Assembly (NCBI GenBank): GCA_030549335.1 | Contig: CM060198.1 | Coordinates: 45,349,353-45,413,352, forward strand | Direction of reading: 5' to 3' | DNA length: 64,000 nucleotides | Source of the DNA: Pontederia crassipes | Lineage: Eukaryota; Streptophyta; Magnoliopsida; Commelinales; Pontederiaceae | Shown here: positions 31,618 through 57,052 of the stretch, piece by piece | How the letters are laid out: each line of letters begins with the position of its first letter | Numbering within the stretch: the stretch's first letter is position 1 | Position numbers and translations under genes: made by a program | Notes under the pieces: generated by a model | The model's input: the letters and a program-made list of their open reading frames with translations, nothing else | The model's database searches: none | What the model was told of the DNA's origin: nothing

Positions 31618-32466
31618 CAACAACAACAACAACAAAGCCTTATTCCACTAGGTGGGGTCGGCTACATGAATCATACGACGTCATTCCGCTCTATTAGTAA
31701 CCAAAACTTTCGGTATATTATTCACCAATAGATCTTGCTCTATTAGTTCGCCAAGTGTCCGCCTTGGCCTCCCTCTCCCTCTTTTAATCGGACTCCAGAT
31801 TATTTGATCTACTCTTCTTACTGGCGCATCTAATGGTCTTCTTTGAACATGACCAAACCATCTCAAACGATTCTCTACCATTTTCTCACTAATAGGAGCC
31901 ACTCCGACTCGTTCACGTATATGGTCATTCCTAATCTTATCTAATCTTGTATGACCACACATCCATCTCAACATCCTCATTTCGGCTACCCCCACTTTAC
32001 GTTCATGTTGTCCCTTCATAGCCCAGCATTCACTACCATATAACACTGCTGGCCTTATAGCAGTACGATAGAATTTTCCTTTAATTTTATTGGGTACTTT
32101 TCTATCACAAAGAACTCTAGTGGCTTTCCTCCACTTACACCAACCAGCTTGAATTCTATGATTAACATCGTCATCAATCTCACCATCTTGTCTTACAATT
32201 GATCCTAAATATTTAAACTTTGTCACTTGAGAAATTATATCCTCCCCTAGCCTAACTTTCAAATCATCTCTAAGTTGTTTATTTATGAAATTGCTATGCA
32301 TATATTCTGTTTTATTCCTACTTAAATGAAAACCCTTTGACTCCAACGTATTTCTCCATATTTCTAATTTTGTATTAATCTCTTCTCTTGAATCCGCTAA
32401 AAGTACTATATCATCCGCAAATAGCATGCACTTAGGTACCTCCTCTGTGATACTCTCGGTGGATTT
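31618..32466 (-). mobile_element. 5'-truncated LINE (RTE-like)
   Basis: The 3' end, at the left, has a (TTG)n tail and the word CCACCTAGTGGAATAAGGCT. The likely target-site duplication is the 14-bp AAATAAATAAATAA at 31604-31617 and 32467-32480, though low complexity weakens this. It interrupts the Athila-like element close to its right LTR. The SINE at 23975 shares the tail. Confidence 0.75.
31681..32463 (-). pseudogene. LINE reverse transcriptase, C-terminal half
   Basis: The frame enters the LINE at about residue 62 of an open stretch that starts in unrelated LTR DNA, so its first Met is not a real start. The LINE part contains FADDIVLLA, the catalytic box of non-LTR reverse transcriptases, then GFHLSRNKTEYM, KYLGSIVRQDG and YGSECW. 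It ends with LRWFGHVQRRP and RGRGRPRRT before the stop at 31681. That C-terminal signature fits RTE-clade LINEs. The endonuclease and N-terminal RT are missing, so it is inactive although the remaining frame is open. Confidence 0.8.
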
Positions 32467-32582
32467 AAATAAATAAATAAATGTGAAAGTATGTGAATTA
32501 ATAAGAATTCGCGTGGAATTTAATAGAAAAATAAAAGCACTCAAATAACAAGTAAAATAAAAATAAAAGTTATTAAACACTG

Positions 32583-32602
32583 TCCCCAACAATGGCGTAA
32601 AA
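32583..32602 (-). other. Candidate primer-binding site of the Athila-like element
   Basis: Read on the minus strand it gives a diverged form of TGGCGCCGTTGCCGGGGA, complementary to the 3' end of tRNA-Asp as used by Athila elements. It lies next to the LTR edge at 32607. Confidence 0.5.
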
Positions 32603-32606
32603 AACT

Positions 32607-33942
32607 TGATGCATTTAAAATTGATAGCAAACGCTAGCAAGTGCACTAGTTGCTTAAGTAATAAAGTGAATGAATAGAGTTATCGTTCCCACGAGGATGG
32701 TTAATAACTTAAATTATATTTTTACATGTTAATTGAGAAATTAAGAAAATATATGATTTCAGATGTGAATAAAAAGAAAATAATAAAAATAAAGGAAATG
32801 ATCACCTAAAGAAATAATGATTCGACGATTGAGGCACCTAATTATCACCACTAAAATGTAATGAATTTTCTTAACTTAGAATTAGTTGAATAAAAAACAA
32901 AGTGAATTCCCAAATTTAGTTAACCAAATTTTCTTAACTTAGGCTTTAACTACTATCTTATGAAAAATTAGAATAAATTAATCCTTTTGGTTTTTAATTT
33001 ACTTAATTAATCATAAGATGCATTAAAACGGAATTAATATTAAGGGCTTTCTAAAGTCACCATAACAATTACACAAATTAGATCACTTTTGATTTCCCTA
33101 ATTGTGACATGCAATAATTAAGATCAATCTTATAAACTATTATGAAAATAATTACTTCTTCTCAGATAGCAATCAAATCATAAATCATGGAATGAAAGGA
33201 AAGTATTAAACATGAAATTGCAATGCTATTAAGGGTTCAAATTAAACTAATATTAACAAAGACTTCAAAACATAATAGGGTTCAACTAGAATGGCCCTAA
33301 TAAAGGAATAAATTTGAGAATAACAACATCAAATCTAATGAAAAATATTGGAAAAAGAAAACAAAGAACTCTGGCAGCCGCTGTGCACGTGCTCTCGCGA
33401 GTTTCTGGCAGAGCTTCGCTATTGGTCCTCCTCTGCCTCCTTTTATAGGTTTTTCCATCCCCAAAGGAAGAAACTAAAAATTTATTCGAAAAGTGGATAA
33501 AATTTGCCTTCAAAACTCAACCGTCTGCCATCACGATCGTGACCAAGTGTGGCACGACCGTGACAGAGCGATCATCTTCTGGCAACTCGCTCGCCATCGT
33601 TAAGCATTCTAGCATGGCCGTGACAAAATGATTTTTCACACCATATTACAGCACGGCCGTGACACCATGAGGAACGGCCGTGAAAGTGGCAATTTTCCTT
33701 GAAAGCAACAGAAATGACCATGACAATAATGAGCACGACCGTGACCGAAGCTTCTGCTAGGTTGTTTTCGGTCATTTTTCGTAATTTTACTTTCCTACAA
33801 CAAGATTATCGGAACTTTAGGTTGAAATCAAATCTTAAAGAAATTATCTAAAAATAAATCAATTATCTCTTCTTTGCACATAGAAGACTTAAAAAAATAT
33901 AAATTAAATGACCTAAATTAATGCATGATTTTTTGCGCATCA
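32607..33942 (-). repeat. Right LTR (5' LTR) of the Athila-like element
   Basis: It begins TGATGC and ends GCATCA, short inverted ends typical of LTRs. It contains a palindrome cluster at 33520-33750 with the CACGGCCGTGA theme. Confidence 0.75.
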
Positions 33943-34658: not shown

Positions 34659-34806
34659 GAGTAATATTAGGGTGCTACCACATTGTGTGGTAGCATCCTA
34701 CGCCCACTAAAATCCTACCGTACATTCGATGTATGCACGCACGGACGGTGATGAAAGCATTCACACGGTTCATCGTCGTCTGGTTCGCGCGATTCGACTT
34801 CTCCCC
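34659..34806 (+). repeat. MULE left terminal inverted repeat
   Basis: It matches the complement of 40646-40782 through CGCCCACTAAAATCCTACCG, GACGGTGATGAAAGCATTCA and GATTCGACTTCTCCCC. A near-terminal hairpin, TGCTACCACA-TTG-TGTGGTAGCA (34674-34696), is longer than its counterpart at the right end. Confidence 0.9.
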
Positions 34807-34859
34807 TGGCGTTAGGTTTTCCTCTCCGCGCGTGACGACGGCTTGCATTTATCCCCTGG

Positions 34860-35560
34860 CGAGGGACTAGGGCACTGACGACGAGTCTCTCCTCCTCTTC
34901 GCCTTCTCCGTGCACGATCGAGTCTCCACCTCCTCACCACGAGACGCTAGGGGCACAGACAGTGGCCGACATCCTCCTCCTCCTCCTCCTCGCGAGCGAC
35001 TAGGGCACAGACGCAATGATCGAGTCTCCGTGACTTCTCCCCTCGCGATCGAGTCTCCTCCTCCTCTTCGGCTTCACTGCATGTGTCTTCGCTCACCCCG
35101 AGACGCTAGGGCACAGACGGCGGCCAGCATCATCCTCCTCTTCGCGAGACGCTAGGGCACAGACATCGGCCGACAGCCTCCTCCTCCTCCTCTTCGCAAG
35201 TGTCTAGGGCAGAGACGGTGGCCGGCATACTTCCCCTCTCCGCGAGACGCTAGGGCACAGATGGCGGCCGACATCGTCCTCCTCTCCGCGAGACTCTAGG
35301 GCACAGACGTCGATCGACAGCCTCCTCCTCCTCCTCTCCACGATTGTCTAGGGCAGAGACGCAAGCGTTTCTCTTCCTCCGCCTACTCATGAGCGGCTAG
35401 GTCACAGCGGCCGCCCATCTTTCTCACGGTTGTCCAAAATGCCTTCCTATATTGTTTATGTGCATCGTTGTTTATTTTGTTTATATGTTCTCTTGTTCTC
35501 ATGGCTAGGGCACAGATGCTGGGTGACAAAGGCCTGTCAATGACACCGGGCTAGAGCTGA
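34860..35560 (+). repeat. MULE left subterminal GC-rich tandem array
   Basis: About eleven imperfect units of roughly 45-60 bp carry CGAGACGCTAGGGCACAGAC followed by CGGCCGACA and CTCCTCCTC. Positions of CTAGGG include 34998, 35104, 35150, 35205, 35247, 35294, 35347 and 35504. Open frames through it are repeat artefacts. Confidence 0.8.
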
Positions 35561-35959
35561 AGGACACAAACGTTGGGCAACAGAGGGATACTCGATGACG
35601 AAGGGCACGCGCACGGTTACTTACACAGCAGTGACTTAGGGCAAAAAAGGTTTTGATCTCCTTCATGCTTGTACAACAATTTGTTTAAGCATTATTGTGG
35701 TAAATGGCAATTGAACTATAATGTTTCCTATGTTCTACTTTCTTAATTTTGTAATTGAACTTCCTTAATTCATTTCTAGGCAGGATTTCTCATTCATATC
35801 ATATTAATGAACATTTCTAACATGCCTTTCTACTATAATGTTTACAACCAAATAATGTTTACATATTGGTTTGAATCATAGTGTTTACGGATTGGTGAAA
35901 TATTTTGATTTTTTCTTCATTCTTCTGTGCACTTATATTGCTTCTACAATTTAGTTATA

Positions 35960-36409
35960 ATGTCGAGAGTGAAACCATCAATTACACCACTATGTCATTG
36001 TCATGAAGTTGCTGCTATTAAAACCTCATGGGCAGAAGCAAATCCTTTATGGGTGCATCAATTATGACGTAAGATTTTAAATTTAATTGTGCCATTTCCG
36101 ACTTGCTTATAATGAAGTTTACTTTGACTTTGATTCATATTTTATTCGCAGGAAAATGGGGGTTGTCAATATTTTCAATGGCTTGATCCTGAAGTTGATT
36201 CTTGATATCAAAGCCTTCTTAATGGTTTATTAAGGAGGATCAAGCAAATAGACTCTGATGGCAAAGATGAAAAGAAAATGTTACAATATATTATCGAAGA
36301 TGAAAGGAGAATATTTCAAGTTGTCATTGACGTTGAAAGGAGAAAATGTAAATCTTATAAAAATTTGACGATATGCTTGATACTGATAATGATATATATC
36401 TTGAAATAA
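35960..36409 (+). pseudogene. GRF-type zinc-finger gene carried by the MULE (2 exons)
   Basis: Exon 1 (35960-36068) starts MSRVKPSITPLCHCHEVAAI..SWAEANP and, after a small frame-changing deletion near 36050, YGCINYD. The intron 36069-36151 has GT-AG ends. Exon 2 begins GGCQYFQWLDPEVDS. Together these give the CxC..C..C pattern and the aromatic GGCxYFxW box of the zf-GRF domain, a nucleic-acid-binding zinc finger. A TGA at 36203 is in frame. Past it the frame stays open through a Lys/Glu-rich helix to a hydrophobic C-terminal segment (CLILIMIYIL) ending at 36409. That layout, GRF finger, helix and C-terminal membrane anchor, is common in small plant GRF proteins. The retained intron suggests DNA-level capture or a native MULE gene. 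It is broken as it stands. Confidence 0.65.
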
Positions 36410-36611
36410 AATGTGTAATGTCATTTGTGTTGTAATGTTATTGAAACTAGAAAGAAAGTATTATGTAGTTGTGTAAGCATTATGTAGTTGTCGAATTGTA
36501 ATGTTACCTTGATATGTAGTATTATGTAGTTTATATTTGCCTGATACGTTTAAGTCAAATTGTCGAATTGTAATATTATCGAATTGTCGAATTGTAATGT
36601 TATCGTGGGGA

Positions 36612-36822
36612 GAACCTCTGATATGCCACCAGACATATCACTTCCAAAGGCAATGCCTGCTCCTGCTTTTGTTTCTCCAGTGATTCGGTGAATGCTAATA
36701 TTGGTACTTGGGTGAGTGAACGAAATGCCATATTCATCACATCCACTTTTAATGGCAATGAGATCATCGCCAGTCCTGACATACCAATCTTCTATGCACA
36801 CATTGCTTGAGGAATTTGGATA
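36612..36822 (-). pseudogene. Captured GH28 (polygalacturonase-like) exon fragment
   Basis: About 70 codons on the minus strand read NSSSNVCIEDWYVRTGDDL, then IAIKSGCDEYGISF, PSTNISIHRITG, and AGAGIAFGSDMSGGISEV. This follows the core of plant family-28 glycosyl hydrolases (pectin-degrading, cell wall), including the GDD acid pair. Only a middle piece is present, ending abruptly at about 36612 in repetitive AATTCGACAATT text. The rest of the gene is absent, so there is no enzyme. Such a piece inside a MULE is the Pack-MULE type of gene capture. Confidence 0.75.
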
Positions 36823-37566
36823 TATTCAGAAAAAAGCTGAAACACTTATCACAGCACACCAGTAGAGAAAGCACTAAAAGAGATAACATAGTTAACAATG
36901 TAAAGATAAAGATAACATAATCTGTTTGCCAACAGTATTCCAGTGTGAAACATAAAGATAACATTGTCGGTTTATATGCACTAAGCTGTTTGCCAACAGT
37001 ATTCCAGTGTGAAACATAAAGATAACATAAAAGACAACAACTAGGTAGACAACATGTTTGATTCTGCAGTGACAACATAAAGCTCCAGTGATTTGTAATA
37101 TCTCTTCAGCATGTTTGATTCTACAACTCCAATGTTCTCATTGGACACCACCAATTGCAGCCAACACGCCCCTGAAAAGAGATAACATAGTTAACAATGT
37201 AAAACACAACATGAGAAGAAAACAAATAACAAAGGATAATCTGAATATGAACTTTATAAAGATCAAGATAGTTCATTTATGTATAGTAATCAATGTTTAG
37301 TGTGTTAACAAATAAAACATAAAGCATGTTCTTTAATTATAAACATCAATAACTATAACATAACATAGGTGACATGTCTACAAAAGAGATTATATAAACA
37401 ATAACAAAGGAGAATTTGAGTATGAACTTTATAAAGATCAAGATAGTTCATTTATGTATAGTAATATAGACATGACAATCATGCTAATTAGGAAACTTAG
37501 TAGAAGAAAAAAAAGGAGAAAATAATGAACAATGTAAAACACAATATAATTAATGTCAATGCTTGA
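36823..37566. other. MULE interior without recognised gene
   Basis: It contains a duplicated segment of about 65 bp (ACAGTATTCCAGTGTGAAAC at about 36930 and 36995) and duplicated phrases such as AACTTTATAAAGATCAAGAT (about 37250 and 37425). A piece at 37095-37180 could be a second captured fragment, but I cannot identify it. Confidence 0.4.
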
Positions 37567-40073
37567 TTATTCATCATCTTCAGATGACATGACTTCATCT
37601 AATTCATCATCACCATCATCCTCCATCATTTTGCCTTTTCCTTTCCTTTTCTTTTCTTCTTTTGCCTAGTAACACAACCAGCATGTTTTAATAAACTGTT
37701 AAAAAATAACACGACCAAACACATAAAGTGTAAATGACATATAAAATTACCTTAGCTACCGGACACGTACTCCTATAATGACCACGATTGCCGCACTCTC
37801 CACATATCCTCCTCTTAATCTCAAGTTGTGACATGGAAATTTCGATACCCGATTTTATTCTTGTGTCATTAATCATAACTTGTATTTCATAAGTAGGGTC
37901 ATTAATCATAACTTGTATTTCAGTGGGCCTTTTTGTCAAAGTTGCATATGGCAACATATTCTGATCTTAATCACCACTTTTGAAATCTTCAAACTTTTGA
38001 AGAACTTTATTGACAACTTTCAAACCGAAGTCAAGATGATCATCCGAGCGCAAACCAAAATTATTAACCTTCCAAATATTTCTTCTCTAAGTCCATCTCT
38101 TTAGAGTACTAATAGACTGTTCACCACATGTGTGCTCCTGAACTAAGCGTGCTTTTAAGTATCGAGCATCAATGGTCCAACGATGATGAATATATTTTTT
38201 TTGAAAGAGTTGTTATACCTTTCTTATTGAGGATATTTAACGCATGGGTGCAAAGTATTCCCTCTTGTTCAAATTTCTTACAAGAACATTTTACAAAAAT
38301 TTCCTCGTGTGTACTATATTCAGCAATGTAGCTTTGCTCGTCATTCCCCATCACCACAGAGTAGAGTACTTGATTAGCATCTTTTGATATTCTTTGAGCT
38401 CGATAATCATTGATAGCCTTGAACTCCTTCTGGAATGAAGAAAAAATCTTTTGAGTATACACCTTTATTGCATGTGCTTCCAGTGAATTTTTAGAACTTA
38501 AAGAAGGTGTAGAATGTAGGTTTTTAAAATCCTCTCGTTCTTCTGCTTTCGACGACACTGAATGGCTCTATCATATTGCACGACAAACTCGGTTAAAGAT
38601 GTTTGAGAGTTAACAAAGCAATCAAAAAAGAAATTAATAGTCTCATATCTTTGTGATGATGACATTCTAACACAAAATACATCACTAAAATAAATCGGCA
38701 CCCAAAAATGATGTTTACAAAACATAGTTTCTGTCCAATGTCCATCTGGAATGTCATATGTTTCCTTCAAAGAAAGCCATTTTTCCTCACAATCTATAAT
38801 GCTCTTTGACTCATATATCCACTTCTTAAAATCCTTCATAAAGTTGCCTTTCATATTGTCCAATTTACGAGTATTAATGACTGCATTCTTCAAAATATGC
38901 CAAATGCAAAAGCGGTGTCTTGTGTTACAAAAGACTTTACTTATAGCATTTCCCATAGCGATATCTTGATCAGTGATAATGCATACATGTTCTTTTCCTC
39001 TCATGCAATCTAACCAAGTTTGGAACAACCAAATAAATGTTTCTTCTATTTCATACGCAAGAAAGGCACATCCAAATAGGATAGACTGCATATGATGATT
39101 CACCCTTGTGAAGAGTGCAAATGGCGTGCAAAATTTGTTAGTTCTATAAGTTGTGTAAAAAATAACAATGTCTCCAAAGGTTGCATAATTATCTCTTGAC
39201 CTATTATTTGCCCAAAATACATTTCTTGTAGTGTTATTTTCATCCACAACCATTTCGAAACAAAAACCAACATCTTCGTATTTTTTTTGCTTGAAATAAG
39301 AAATAACTCTCATGCATTCTTTGCCAACATTGTTTTGTCTACTTGCAATCAAATGATTTATGCAATTCTGTGTAGTAATTGATGGAACGCCCGAGAAATT
39401 AAGAACTTTTGCAATATGAAAAGGGTCCATTCCAGCACCACGAAATTGTGTAATGAGATCTTTAGAAGTATCACATAAGTTGCTATGTGATCTCAATCTT
39501 ACAACCTTCGTGGGGGTGTCTAATAAATGATTATGCTCTTCTCGAAACCTTTTTACAATCCACCTATTGTCCATCATTTCACCGATAAAAATATGAGCTT
39601 CACAACCAGTCCTTTGTTCCTTCCTTCGTTTCACGTCATCTCCATCATTTCGTTTGAGGTCTTTATGACCTTCTTTAGAGCATACAAATACCCCGCTTGC
39701 ATATTTTCTCCTTTGACCATCGGGCTTATGGTAAGCATGCTTTCTAATAGAAAAACCAATTGTTCTTGCATATAAGTTGTAATATCCATAGGCTTGGTCA
39801 TCGGAATCGAAAATCATCCCAACAGAAGGCTTACCATCACTAGCTTGACTTATGTTTTCTATGTTTTCACAATCATTATCACTGTACACACATCAAAACA
39901 AAATCTATTTTAAGAATGCTAAGCAAAGAATAAGCATCACATGTGACGAAAAATCACCTTGTTAGTCGAGGACTACTTAGGTTGGATACAAAAAATGAAT
40001 GTTCAGAAATCGCCATAGATGTGAACATGTCGTCATGGTTCTCGGCAACAAGCGGTTCATCCTCACTCATCAT
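37567..40073 (-). pseudogene. FAR1-type MULE transposase, decayed
   Basis: The likely start is 40073 (MMSEDEPLV). Exon 1 is 40073-39958. Exon 2 starts at 39881 with the frame kept across a GT-AG intron. A last intron at 37750-37666 leads to exon 3 (37665-37567) with a basic then acidic tail. Domains: FAR1 DNA-binding region about residues 62-158 (CEAHI, EEHNH), then the MULE transposase domain with VFWANNRSR, FGDIVIF, VNHHMQSILFGCAFL, ITDQD, RHRFCIWH and RYETINFFFDCFV. After it come a SWIM finger (CSC..CTHAL, about 38270) and a CCHC knuckle (CGECGNRGHYRSTC, about 37790). Lesions: the first catalytic Asp is Tyr (FYTTY, codon 39157-39155), a one-base loss near 38547, a shift at a T8 run near 38195, and stops near 38100 and 37965. 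It would have cut and pasted its own element, and is now dead. Confidence 0.88.
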
Positions 40074-40189
40074 TTTCCACGATAACCTATGACCAATGCA
40101 GTGATTTATAAGGCCTACATCATTCAATTTGAACCGAAAAATGTAACTATGTAAGGTAAAAAAAATGTCGGCAATTGAAGAATTACTTC

Positions 40190-40500
40190 AAGAGGAGGAC
40201 TACAGTCGCCGTATGAGCCCTAGCGGCCCGCGGTGAGGAGGAGGAAGCTGACTGATGTATGTGCCCTAGCGGCCGACGAAGACGAGGAGGAAGTCGGCCG
40301 TCGTATGTGCCCTAGCGGTTCGCGGAGAGGAGGAGGAGGAGGGCAGCCGCCGTATGTGCCCTAGCAGTTCGCGGAGAGGAGGAGGAGGAGGGCAGCTGCC
40401 GAGGAGCGGAGAAGAGGAGAGCAGCCGCCGTAGGTGCCCTAGCGGCTCGTGGAGAAGAGGGGAGCAGCCACCGTACGTGCCCTAGTGACTCGCGGAGAGG
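40190..40500 (-). repeat. MULE right subterminal GC-rich tandem array
   Basis: Six imperfect units carry GTGCCCTAGCGG followed by CGCGGAGAGGAGGAGGAGG, at about 40218, 40261, 40309, 40357, 40433 and 40479. This is the reverse complement of the left array theme, so the arrays extend the inverted symmetry of the element. Confidence 0.8.
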
Positions 40501-40645
40501 ATGAGAAGGCCATCATTTGTCCTACCGATGAGGATCTTGATGCCCCAATGGAGAAGTCGCGTGGAGAGGGGATCTCGAACGCAAGCCAGGGGAGAAGTCA
40601 CGTGGAGAGGGGAGCCAGGGGAGAAGTCGAATCGTGCGAACCGGT

Positions 40646-40782
40646 GGGGAGAAGTCGAATCGCGCGAACCGGACGACGACGAATCGTGTGAATGCTTTCA
40701 TCACCGTCCGTGCGCGCATACATGGAACCTACGGTAGGATTTTAGTGGGCGTAGGGTGCTTGGTAGCACCCTAATATTACTC
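40646..40782 (-). repeat. MULE right terminal inverted repeat
   Basis: Inverted partner of 34659-34806. It carries a shorter terminal hairpin, GGGTGCT-TGGT-AGCACCC (about 40754-40771). Confidence 0.9.
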
Positions 40783-55587: not shown

Positions 55588-57052
55588 ATGGCATCAAGTG
55601 GTTTTAATTTTGTAGAAGGACAATCAATTAGTCATCCTCCCCTTTTAAATGCGTCAAATTTTGCATATTAGAAAATTAGAATCCAAGCATATATTTGTTC
55701 TATTGATATCGACATGTGTGACATAGTTGAAAAATGTTATTATCTTCATGAAAAGTTACCTACGGATCCTAAAGAAAGAGAAAAGATTTTTTCAAAACTT
55801 GATTGGAAAGCCAAAAATATTTTTTATTGTGCTTTGAATTCAACGGAGTTAATCGGATTTCAAGCTATGAAACTGCAACCGAGATTTGGGAAAACTCATC
55901 ACTACTTATGAAGGAACCGACAAAATTAAAGAATCTAAATTGAATATTTTAAACCATCAATACGATTCTTTAAAAATGCATAATAATGAATCTATAAATG
56001 ATATGGTTGCTTGGTTTAATAATATTTTGAATGGTTTAGCCTCCTTGGACGAGCTAAGATCTAACCCCCAAAAAATGAAAAATAATTCTCAATTTTCTCT
56101 TCTCCGAATGGCATACGAAGAAGACCATGATCGAAGAAAAAGATTTGAACAATTAGATTTTGATGATCTTATTGGCTCACTTTTAACCTATGAGATCTCA
56201 ATCCAAGAAGATCAAGAAGAAAAAGCCCTCAAGAAGAAAACATTGGCATTTAAGGCAAACACAATAGAAAAAGATTCAAGTGAAGAGGAAGTGGATGAAA
56301 AGAAACTCGCACTCTACATAAGAAAATTAGATAAGTATCTCAAGTTAGTTAAAAAGAAAGACAAGAATGAGAAGCCAACAAAAAAATCATACAAACATAA
56401 CAAAGAAGAAAAATCACGGAAAGGTAAAAAGAAAAAATATGAAGAGTCTAGTGAAACAAGTAGTTCATCAAGCTCTTCAAATGATGAAGCATACATATGC
56501 TTGATGGCACACGACGATGAGGTAATATCTAACCCTTCAAACTCAAATTATGACTCATCAAATTCTTCCAAAGAAATTCTTTATTTAGATATGAATAAAG
56601 AACTATCATCTCTTATAAAAAGATATTTTTCAATTAAAGAGGAAAATGACACATTAATACATGAAATTGAAAAATTAAAAGAGGGAAATAATGCATATTT
56701 TTTGGAAAATGAAAAACTAAAAAATAAAATTGATACTTTGGAAATCACGCATACATGTGAAGTTGTAAAATTAGCATGTTCTTTGGAAAAAAGTAAAGAA
56801 AGAAAATGTTTCTTTGAAAGATATACAAAATAAAATTATTTCTTATGCAAAGAAAAATAATCTTAGGAATCATCCCTATGATAGAAAATCACATTTTAAA
56901 TGCTTTACACGTGAATTTTATGAACATTATGCATATTAATGCAAAATGAGAAAATCAACACAACATGGCATGATTTGAGTTCCGAAAGGAACATTCTCTA
57001 ACAAATTAGGACCCAAAGAGATTTGGGTACCAAATATTACATAATTACTTTT
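55588..57052 (+). pseudogene. Copia-type gag, broken
   Basis: The start MASSGFNFVEGQ at 55588 is followed by a TAG at codon 28, where the family has the Trp of a YWK box. The frame continues with KIRIQAYICSIDIDMCDIVE, shifts near 55880, and continues with a 300-codon stretch (DKIKESKLNILNHQYDSL, NESINDMVAWFNNIL). That leads into Lys/Glu-rich and Ser-rich low complexity and a coiled coil ending at 56833. Beyond, about 56880-57050, disrupted remains of the C-terminal part read KCFTREFYEHYAY..CKMRKS, a damaged zinc knuckle, and GPKEIWVPNIT, a SIRE-like gag ending. Gag would form the virus-like particle. No pol follows it. Confidence 0.75.

Follow-up and report, generated by a model that had tools for sequence, protein, structure and literature searches.

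A GRF zinc-finger gene as a probable second gene of a FAR1-type MULE lineage in Pontederia crassipes

A 64,000-nucleotide stretch of Pontederia crassipes DNA (GenBank assembly GCA_030549335.1, contig CM060198.1, positions 45,349,353 to 45,413,352; hereafter the window) contains a Mutator-like element (MULE) that carries a FAR1-type transposase gene and, on the opposite strand, a spliced gene for a small GRF zinc-finger protein. The GRF gene is very probably a standing, selected second gene of this FAR1-MULE lineage, because it recurs across copies and families, keeps a fixed antisense place on the 3′ side of the transposase, has a low ratio of nonsynonymous to synonymous divergence (dN/dS), and has a dS concordant with that of the transposase. 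Our overall reading, to which we give a probability of about 0.8, is a two-gene MULE lineage in which the GRF protein acts as an accessory transposition protein and of which the window copy is a decayed member. The FAR1-MULE type is known; within the literature searched, the recurrent GRF second gene appears to be new.

Recurrence and inheritance of the GRF gene

A first-pass annotation of the window had suggested that the GRF gene, if it recurred in other copies, would be a standing component of the MULE and not passing cargo. It does recur. All genome-wide searches were made in one genome of 1.13 Gb in 43 contigs, where the left terminal inverted repeat (TIR) of the window element had matches at 25 loci (best 40 of 73 candidates). 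We examined 18 loci, the window and 17 others, with TIRs at both ends in 15 and at one end in 3; C14:3551832, C7:6966793, C11:33896828, C30:1229332, C16:58110509, C12:83149438 and C19:12207264 lie outside this set. GRF sequence was present at 14 of the 18 loci with 86-93% identity (only 80 nt in L045, partial in L041, L047 and L057), transposase sequence at 15, and the two together at 12. Among the matches listed in a GRF DNA search (best 40 of 149 candidates), 14 of the 15 with at least 86% identity over at least 355 nt fell at TIR loci. At the C7:6966793 TIR locus, a GRF match lies 1.1 kb off by coordinates.

The pairing extends beyond this family. A related element at C8:9344542-9350587 has its own TIRs and the same gene layout. 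Four more distant transposases (76, 70, 68 and 64% amino acid identity) were picked in ignorance of GRF, and probing of their 3′ sides found an antisense GRF gene with both exons in 4/4; GRF lies inside the transposase flank of L019 as well. Profile and transposase searches gave lists of the best 92 of 4535 transposase candidates, the best 150 of 1180 GRF candidates (elsewhere given as 149 scored) and the best 150 of 2178 FAR1 candidates. Among these listed matches, GRF was found within 8 kb by coordinates of 15 of the 92 transposases and of 6 further FAR1 matches. The GRF gene was antisense and on the transposase 3′ side in all 21 pairs, at transposase identities down to 53%. Two pairs at 12-13 kb, one same-strand and 5′, the other antisense, were left out of this count. 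The intron supplied an internal control: a listed FAR1 or transposase neighbour accompanied 14/95 GRF matches that end at the intron position, compared with 1/54 that run through it.

The two genes also diverge together. Pairwise GRF and transposase distances among 10 elements were correlated (r 0.97, p 0.0003), also with the outgroup removed (r 0.81, p 0.0008). Over nine between-family pairs, dN/dS was 0.11-0.38 for GRF and 0.10-0.20 for the transposase, and GRF dS fell within 20% of transposase dS in six. Bootstrap 95% intervals of GRF dN/dS lay below 1 in 8/8 pairs. Between subfamilies, GRF dN/dS was 0.21-0.61, with dS mostly close to the intron distance. The GRF splice sites hold their position across related families in which the intron sequence itself has diverged; a donor or acceptor is lost in the single copies L047, L049, L050 and J16. 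By these sequence measures, the GRF gene has passed down together with the transposase as the families diverged, and purifying selection has acted on it between them.

Several observations weigh against this conclusion. Three of the 18 TIR loci (L042, L053, L058) hold transposase sequence without GRF, two (L056, L057) hold GRF without transposase, and L039 holds neither. None of the listed TIR matches accompanies the close GRF match C2:25754429. For 73 of the 92 listed transposases, no GRF gene was demonstrated among the matches listed or in the short flanks. At about 0.5-1.9, GRF dN/dS among copies of the young subfamily gives no sign of selection, as expected for dead copies. Finally, the dS values of the two genes are discordant in 3/9 pairs, the worst being L044/J16, a saturated comparison (3.24 against 1.34).

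The window element and its contents

The MULE at 34659-40782 is confirmed, as are the boundaries that the first-pass annotation drew from a 9-bp duplication and inverted ends of about 140 bp. The perfect duplication ATATTACAA abuts both ends of the element, and the inverted ends agree at 129 of 148 aligned columns (Table 1). L043 and L044 are also flanked by exact 9-bp duplications. Long TIRs, a duplication in the 8-11 bp range and a DDE transposase domain place the element in the MULE superfamily. The GC-rich subterminal arrays of the two sides are mutually inverted.

Table 1. Positions of the element's parts within the window
Feature	Position	Strand	Basis or remark
Left 9-bp target-site duplication ATATTACAA	34650..34658		sequence comparison of ends
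Left TIR, 148 nt	34659..34806	+	87% to right TIR, E 1e-51; at least 47 genome matches
Left subterminal GC-rich array	34855..35404		~46-52 nt units, CTAGGGCACAGACG-like cores
GRF gene exon 1, degraded	35960..36068	+	11-nt deletion
GRF gene intron, 83 nt, GT..AG	36069..36151	+	place conserved in related families
GRF gene exon 2	36152..36409	+	second half of zinc finger, then a charged, probably helical part and a hydrophobic C-terminus; TGA stop in frame
GH28 (polygalacturonase-like) fragment, captured	36610..36801	-	Pfam, PDB-set and genome matches
Transposase C-terminal piece	37688..37957	-	CCHC-like knuckle, weak, Pfam below cut-off
Transposase SWIM zinc-finger segment	38169..38558	-	frame differs from main open reading frame
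Transposase main open reading frame, 463 aa	38498..39889	-	FAR1 + MULE (DDE) domains
Right subterminal GC-rich array	40192..40509		inverted vs left array
Right TIR, 137 nt	40646..40782	-	alignment to left TIR
Right 9-bp target-site duplication ATATTACAA	40783..40791		sequence comparison of ends

The annotated FAR1-type transposase is present. Pfam finds FAR1 (PF03101, 8e-20) and MULE (PF10551, 2.4e-26) in the 463-aa frame and SWIM (PF04434, 1.2e-5) in the frame that follows it; a CCHC knuckle scores below the cut-off. The coding sequence shifts frame near 38500-38560, through decay or an intron. A FAR1 N-terminus with a SWIM or CCHC C-terminus is the domain order of the Jittery/FAR1 group. A possible short first coding exon lies upstream of the main frame, at 40073-39959 (-). 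The motif CACGCGC, which we take to be the FHY3/FAR1 binding motif, was rejected as a transposase site in the element ends (2/35 ends, 2.17 expected from shuffles). Elsewhere in the genome, at C13:34964226, C14:20469135, C5:53179647 and other places, open frames of 829-855 aa hold two tandem FAR1 domains and are probably domesticated FAR1-type genes; none had GRF within 15 kb among the matches listed.

The GRF gene is spliced as annotated, with two exons and a GT..AG intron. The window copy is decayed. It carries a deletion within the zinc finger that is absent from 12/12 aligned relatives and, in common with L046, an in-frame stop in exon 2. Pfam does not recognise the GRF domain in this broken copy.

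The first-pass annotation had also placed the element between ordinary MULEs and Pack-MULEs on account of captured cargo. This view holds for the GH28 piece and fails for the GRF gene, which is inherited with the transposase under purifying selection. The GH28 piece, on the minus strand between the two genes, has a weak Pfam match below the cut-off (E 0.01); in the PDB set its match is to an exo-polygalacturonase (8.6e-4). It occurs at only 2/18 TIR loci, which rules it out as a standing part of the element. In the second of these, L040, the spacer that includes GH28 matches the whole window spacer at 89%, so a single capture accounts for both copies. Two other genome matches, C12:19134887 and C11:53099503, are 93-94% identical over 222 nt, each hold about 50 nt missing from the element, and are likely host polygalacturonase loci. 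GH28 is captured DNA, from a later capture distinct from the GRF gene and shared by the window copy and one sister copy. The annotation would have been contradicted by GRF or GH28 sequence occurring only outside TIR-bounded elements; both lie inside TIR-bounded copies.

L040 (C4:45876254-45885737) also has two tandem left TIR copies about 160 nt apart and a transposase gene interrupted by an insertion. Elsewhere in the window, an open frame at 31681-32646 (-) looks by eye like the end of a non-LTR (long terminal repeat) reverse transcriptase, and one at 55886-56833 (+) like a copia-type gag.

The GRF protein and what it may do

Open GRF frames occur in the relatives L043 and L044 (125 aa) and in J10, the C10:52 Mb copy (136 aa), and PF06839 scores above the Pfam curated cut-off in L044 (2.5e-10), L050, L062, L056, J10 and J13. 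Beyond the finger, at residues 10-52, the chain continues into a charged region, probably helical, and ends in a conserved hydrophobic tail (KLAICLILIMIYILK in L044, KIIIFLVLILIYVLK in J10). Pfam found no enzyme domain in the relatives' 125-136 aa proteins; the J10 protein has a weak SNARE domain match under the cut-off. The nearest solved chains are the GRF fingers of NEIL3 (4.6e-5). GRF fingers of known function, that of NEIL3 among them, act on DNA ends or single-stranded DNA (ssDNA). The finger PF06839 is shared with APE2, NEIL3 and ZCCHC4, from which the present protein differs in its size of 125-136 aa, probably helical stretch, hydrophobic tail and lack of a Pfam enzyme domain.

A GRF-like zinc finger also follows an RNase H-like reading frame at L069 (C3:27740200-27741000), within an array at C3:27734273-27757075 with 4713-nt spacing. 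This array looks like the pol end of a pararetrovirus or LTR element. At least 10 further genomic places score the same as L069 for GRF.

In the reading we prefer, gene 1 encodes a FAR1-MULE-SWIM transposase and gene 2, convergent with it 3′-to-3′ on the opposite strand, the 125-136 aa GRF protein. By analogy of role and not by homology, the latter would be an accessory transposition protein like mudrB. Its finger would bind ssDNA exposed at the excision or insertion site, aiding integration, and its helical and hydrophobic parts may form oligomers or anchor it to a membrane. The action in ssDNA binding and integration is the weakest part of this proposal, and we put it forward tentatively, at somewhat less than even odds. 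The mudrA and mudrB genes of MuDR are likewise arranged convergently. To our knowledge mudrB is not a GRF protein.

One rival accepts the GRF gene as a selected transposon gene and assigns it a different task, either anti-silencing, as with VANC, or movement to or anchoring in membranes. An anti-silencing second gene does exist in a MULE, vanC of Hiun (PMC6446971), and the conserved hydrophobic tail would suit a membrane role. Against this, known GRF fingers act on DNA ends or ssDNA, and that of APE2 is reported as an ssDNA binder (PMC6122073). We consider such a role unlikely, if a serious competitor.

Could the GRF gene be captured host cargo in the style of a Pack-MULE, amplified by chance with one successful copy? 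MULEs do capture host sequence, as the GH28 piece in the window element attests, and GRF matches are numerous elsewhere in the genome (the best 149 of 1180 candidates were scored). However, the gene, its intron position and its orientation are constant across families whose transposases have diverged to dS of about 0.5-1.6, with dN/dS below 1. A frame and splice sites kept over such distances mean that GRF is not a neutral passenger. Its co-divergence with the transposase and its dN/dS rule against cargo, which we regard as very improbable. That the two genes are chance neighbours, both families being numerous (2178 FAR1 and 1180 GRF candidates), is refuted at the level of association by 9 observed pairs within 8 kb in the PF06839 list against 0.19 expected at random, and by the occurrence of all 21 listed pairs in one of four possible arrangements; its probability is negligible.

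Known MULEs, insertion sites and implications

The two-gene lineage resembles several described systems. Compared by domains, it is like the Jittery group (group 36), with a FAR1 N-terminus, a SWIM or CCHC C-terminus and plant hosts (PMC6446971). The Jittery dicot/monocot sub-group is listed there with one open reading frame, FAR1 at its N-terminus, which is a description and not a definition; here an antisense GRF gene recurs. The combination of a transposase and a second gene recalls MuDR. A captured host piece between TIRs recalls Pack-MULEs, which are characterised by having no transposase of their own; the window element holds a FAR1-MULE frame. A literature search for GRF with MULEs or transposons, with subscription papers and Repbase outside its scope, found no such pairing.

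The family often inserts into dinucleotide repeats. With a flank score of at least 0.75 counted as a repeat, 19/35 flanks qualified, against 0.05% of the window's own 30-mers (9139, the only background used), and at 14/19 loci one flank or both did so. The window copy itself does not lie in a repeat, its AT-rich flanks scoring 0.43 and 0.18; it shares AT-rich surroundings and clean 9-bp duplications with L043 and L044. This agrees with MuTAnT, in which 14 of 218 copies lie outside perfect (TA)n and have 9-nt duplications (PMC4486113). Long TIRs, 9-bp duplications outside repeats and insertion into dinucleotide repeats are shared with MuTAnT, TAFT, Micron and SaTar/AgS-MULE (PMC4486113, PMC5907723). 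Unlike these microsatellite-targeting MULEs, the present family has flanks of two kinds, (AT)n and (TC)n/(GA)n. In L039, L042, L046 and the C8:9344542 element an asymmetry recurs, with (AT)n on one flank and (TC)n then (TA)n on the other. AutoMuTAnT has a Jittery-like transposase and is described with a single open reading frame (PMC4486113), in contrast to the second GRF gene found here. An unnamed "ancillary system" for targeting has been proposed (PMC5907723).

Jittery is reported to excise without reinsertion, and mudrB is described as apparently required for integration (PMC6446971). It is conceivable, though we think it rather doubtful, that what the Jittery/FAR1 branch of MULEs lacks for integration or targeting is the GRF gene. 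Its product would then be a counterpart of mudrB of independent origin, one that binds ssDNA to enable reinsertion and perhaps steers elements to easily melted dinucleotide repeats. If so, Jittery would be a copy that lost its GRF partner, and the ancillary system of microsatellite-targeted MULEs would gain a candidate gene.

The FHY3/FAR1 transcription factors of plants arose from FAR1-type MULEs (PMC6000157), and if these elements have a conserved second gene, their autonomous copies would have to be recognised in a different way. The GRF gene is a concrete candidate on two counts, why Jittery excises without reinserting and how some MULEs are guided to microsatellites. In this genome, at least 21 of the GRF sites listed lie beside a FAR1 transposase, and some genes annotated in plants as GRF zinc-finger genes may be transposon genes, not host genes.

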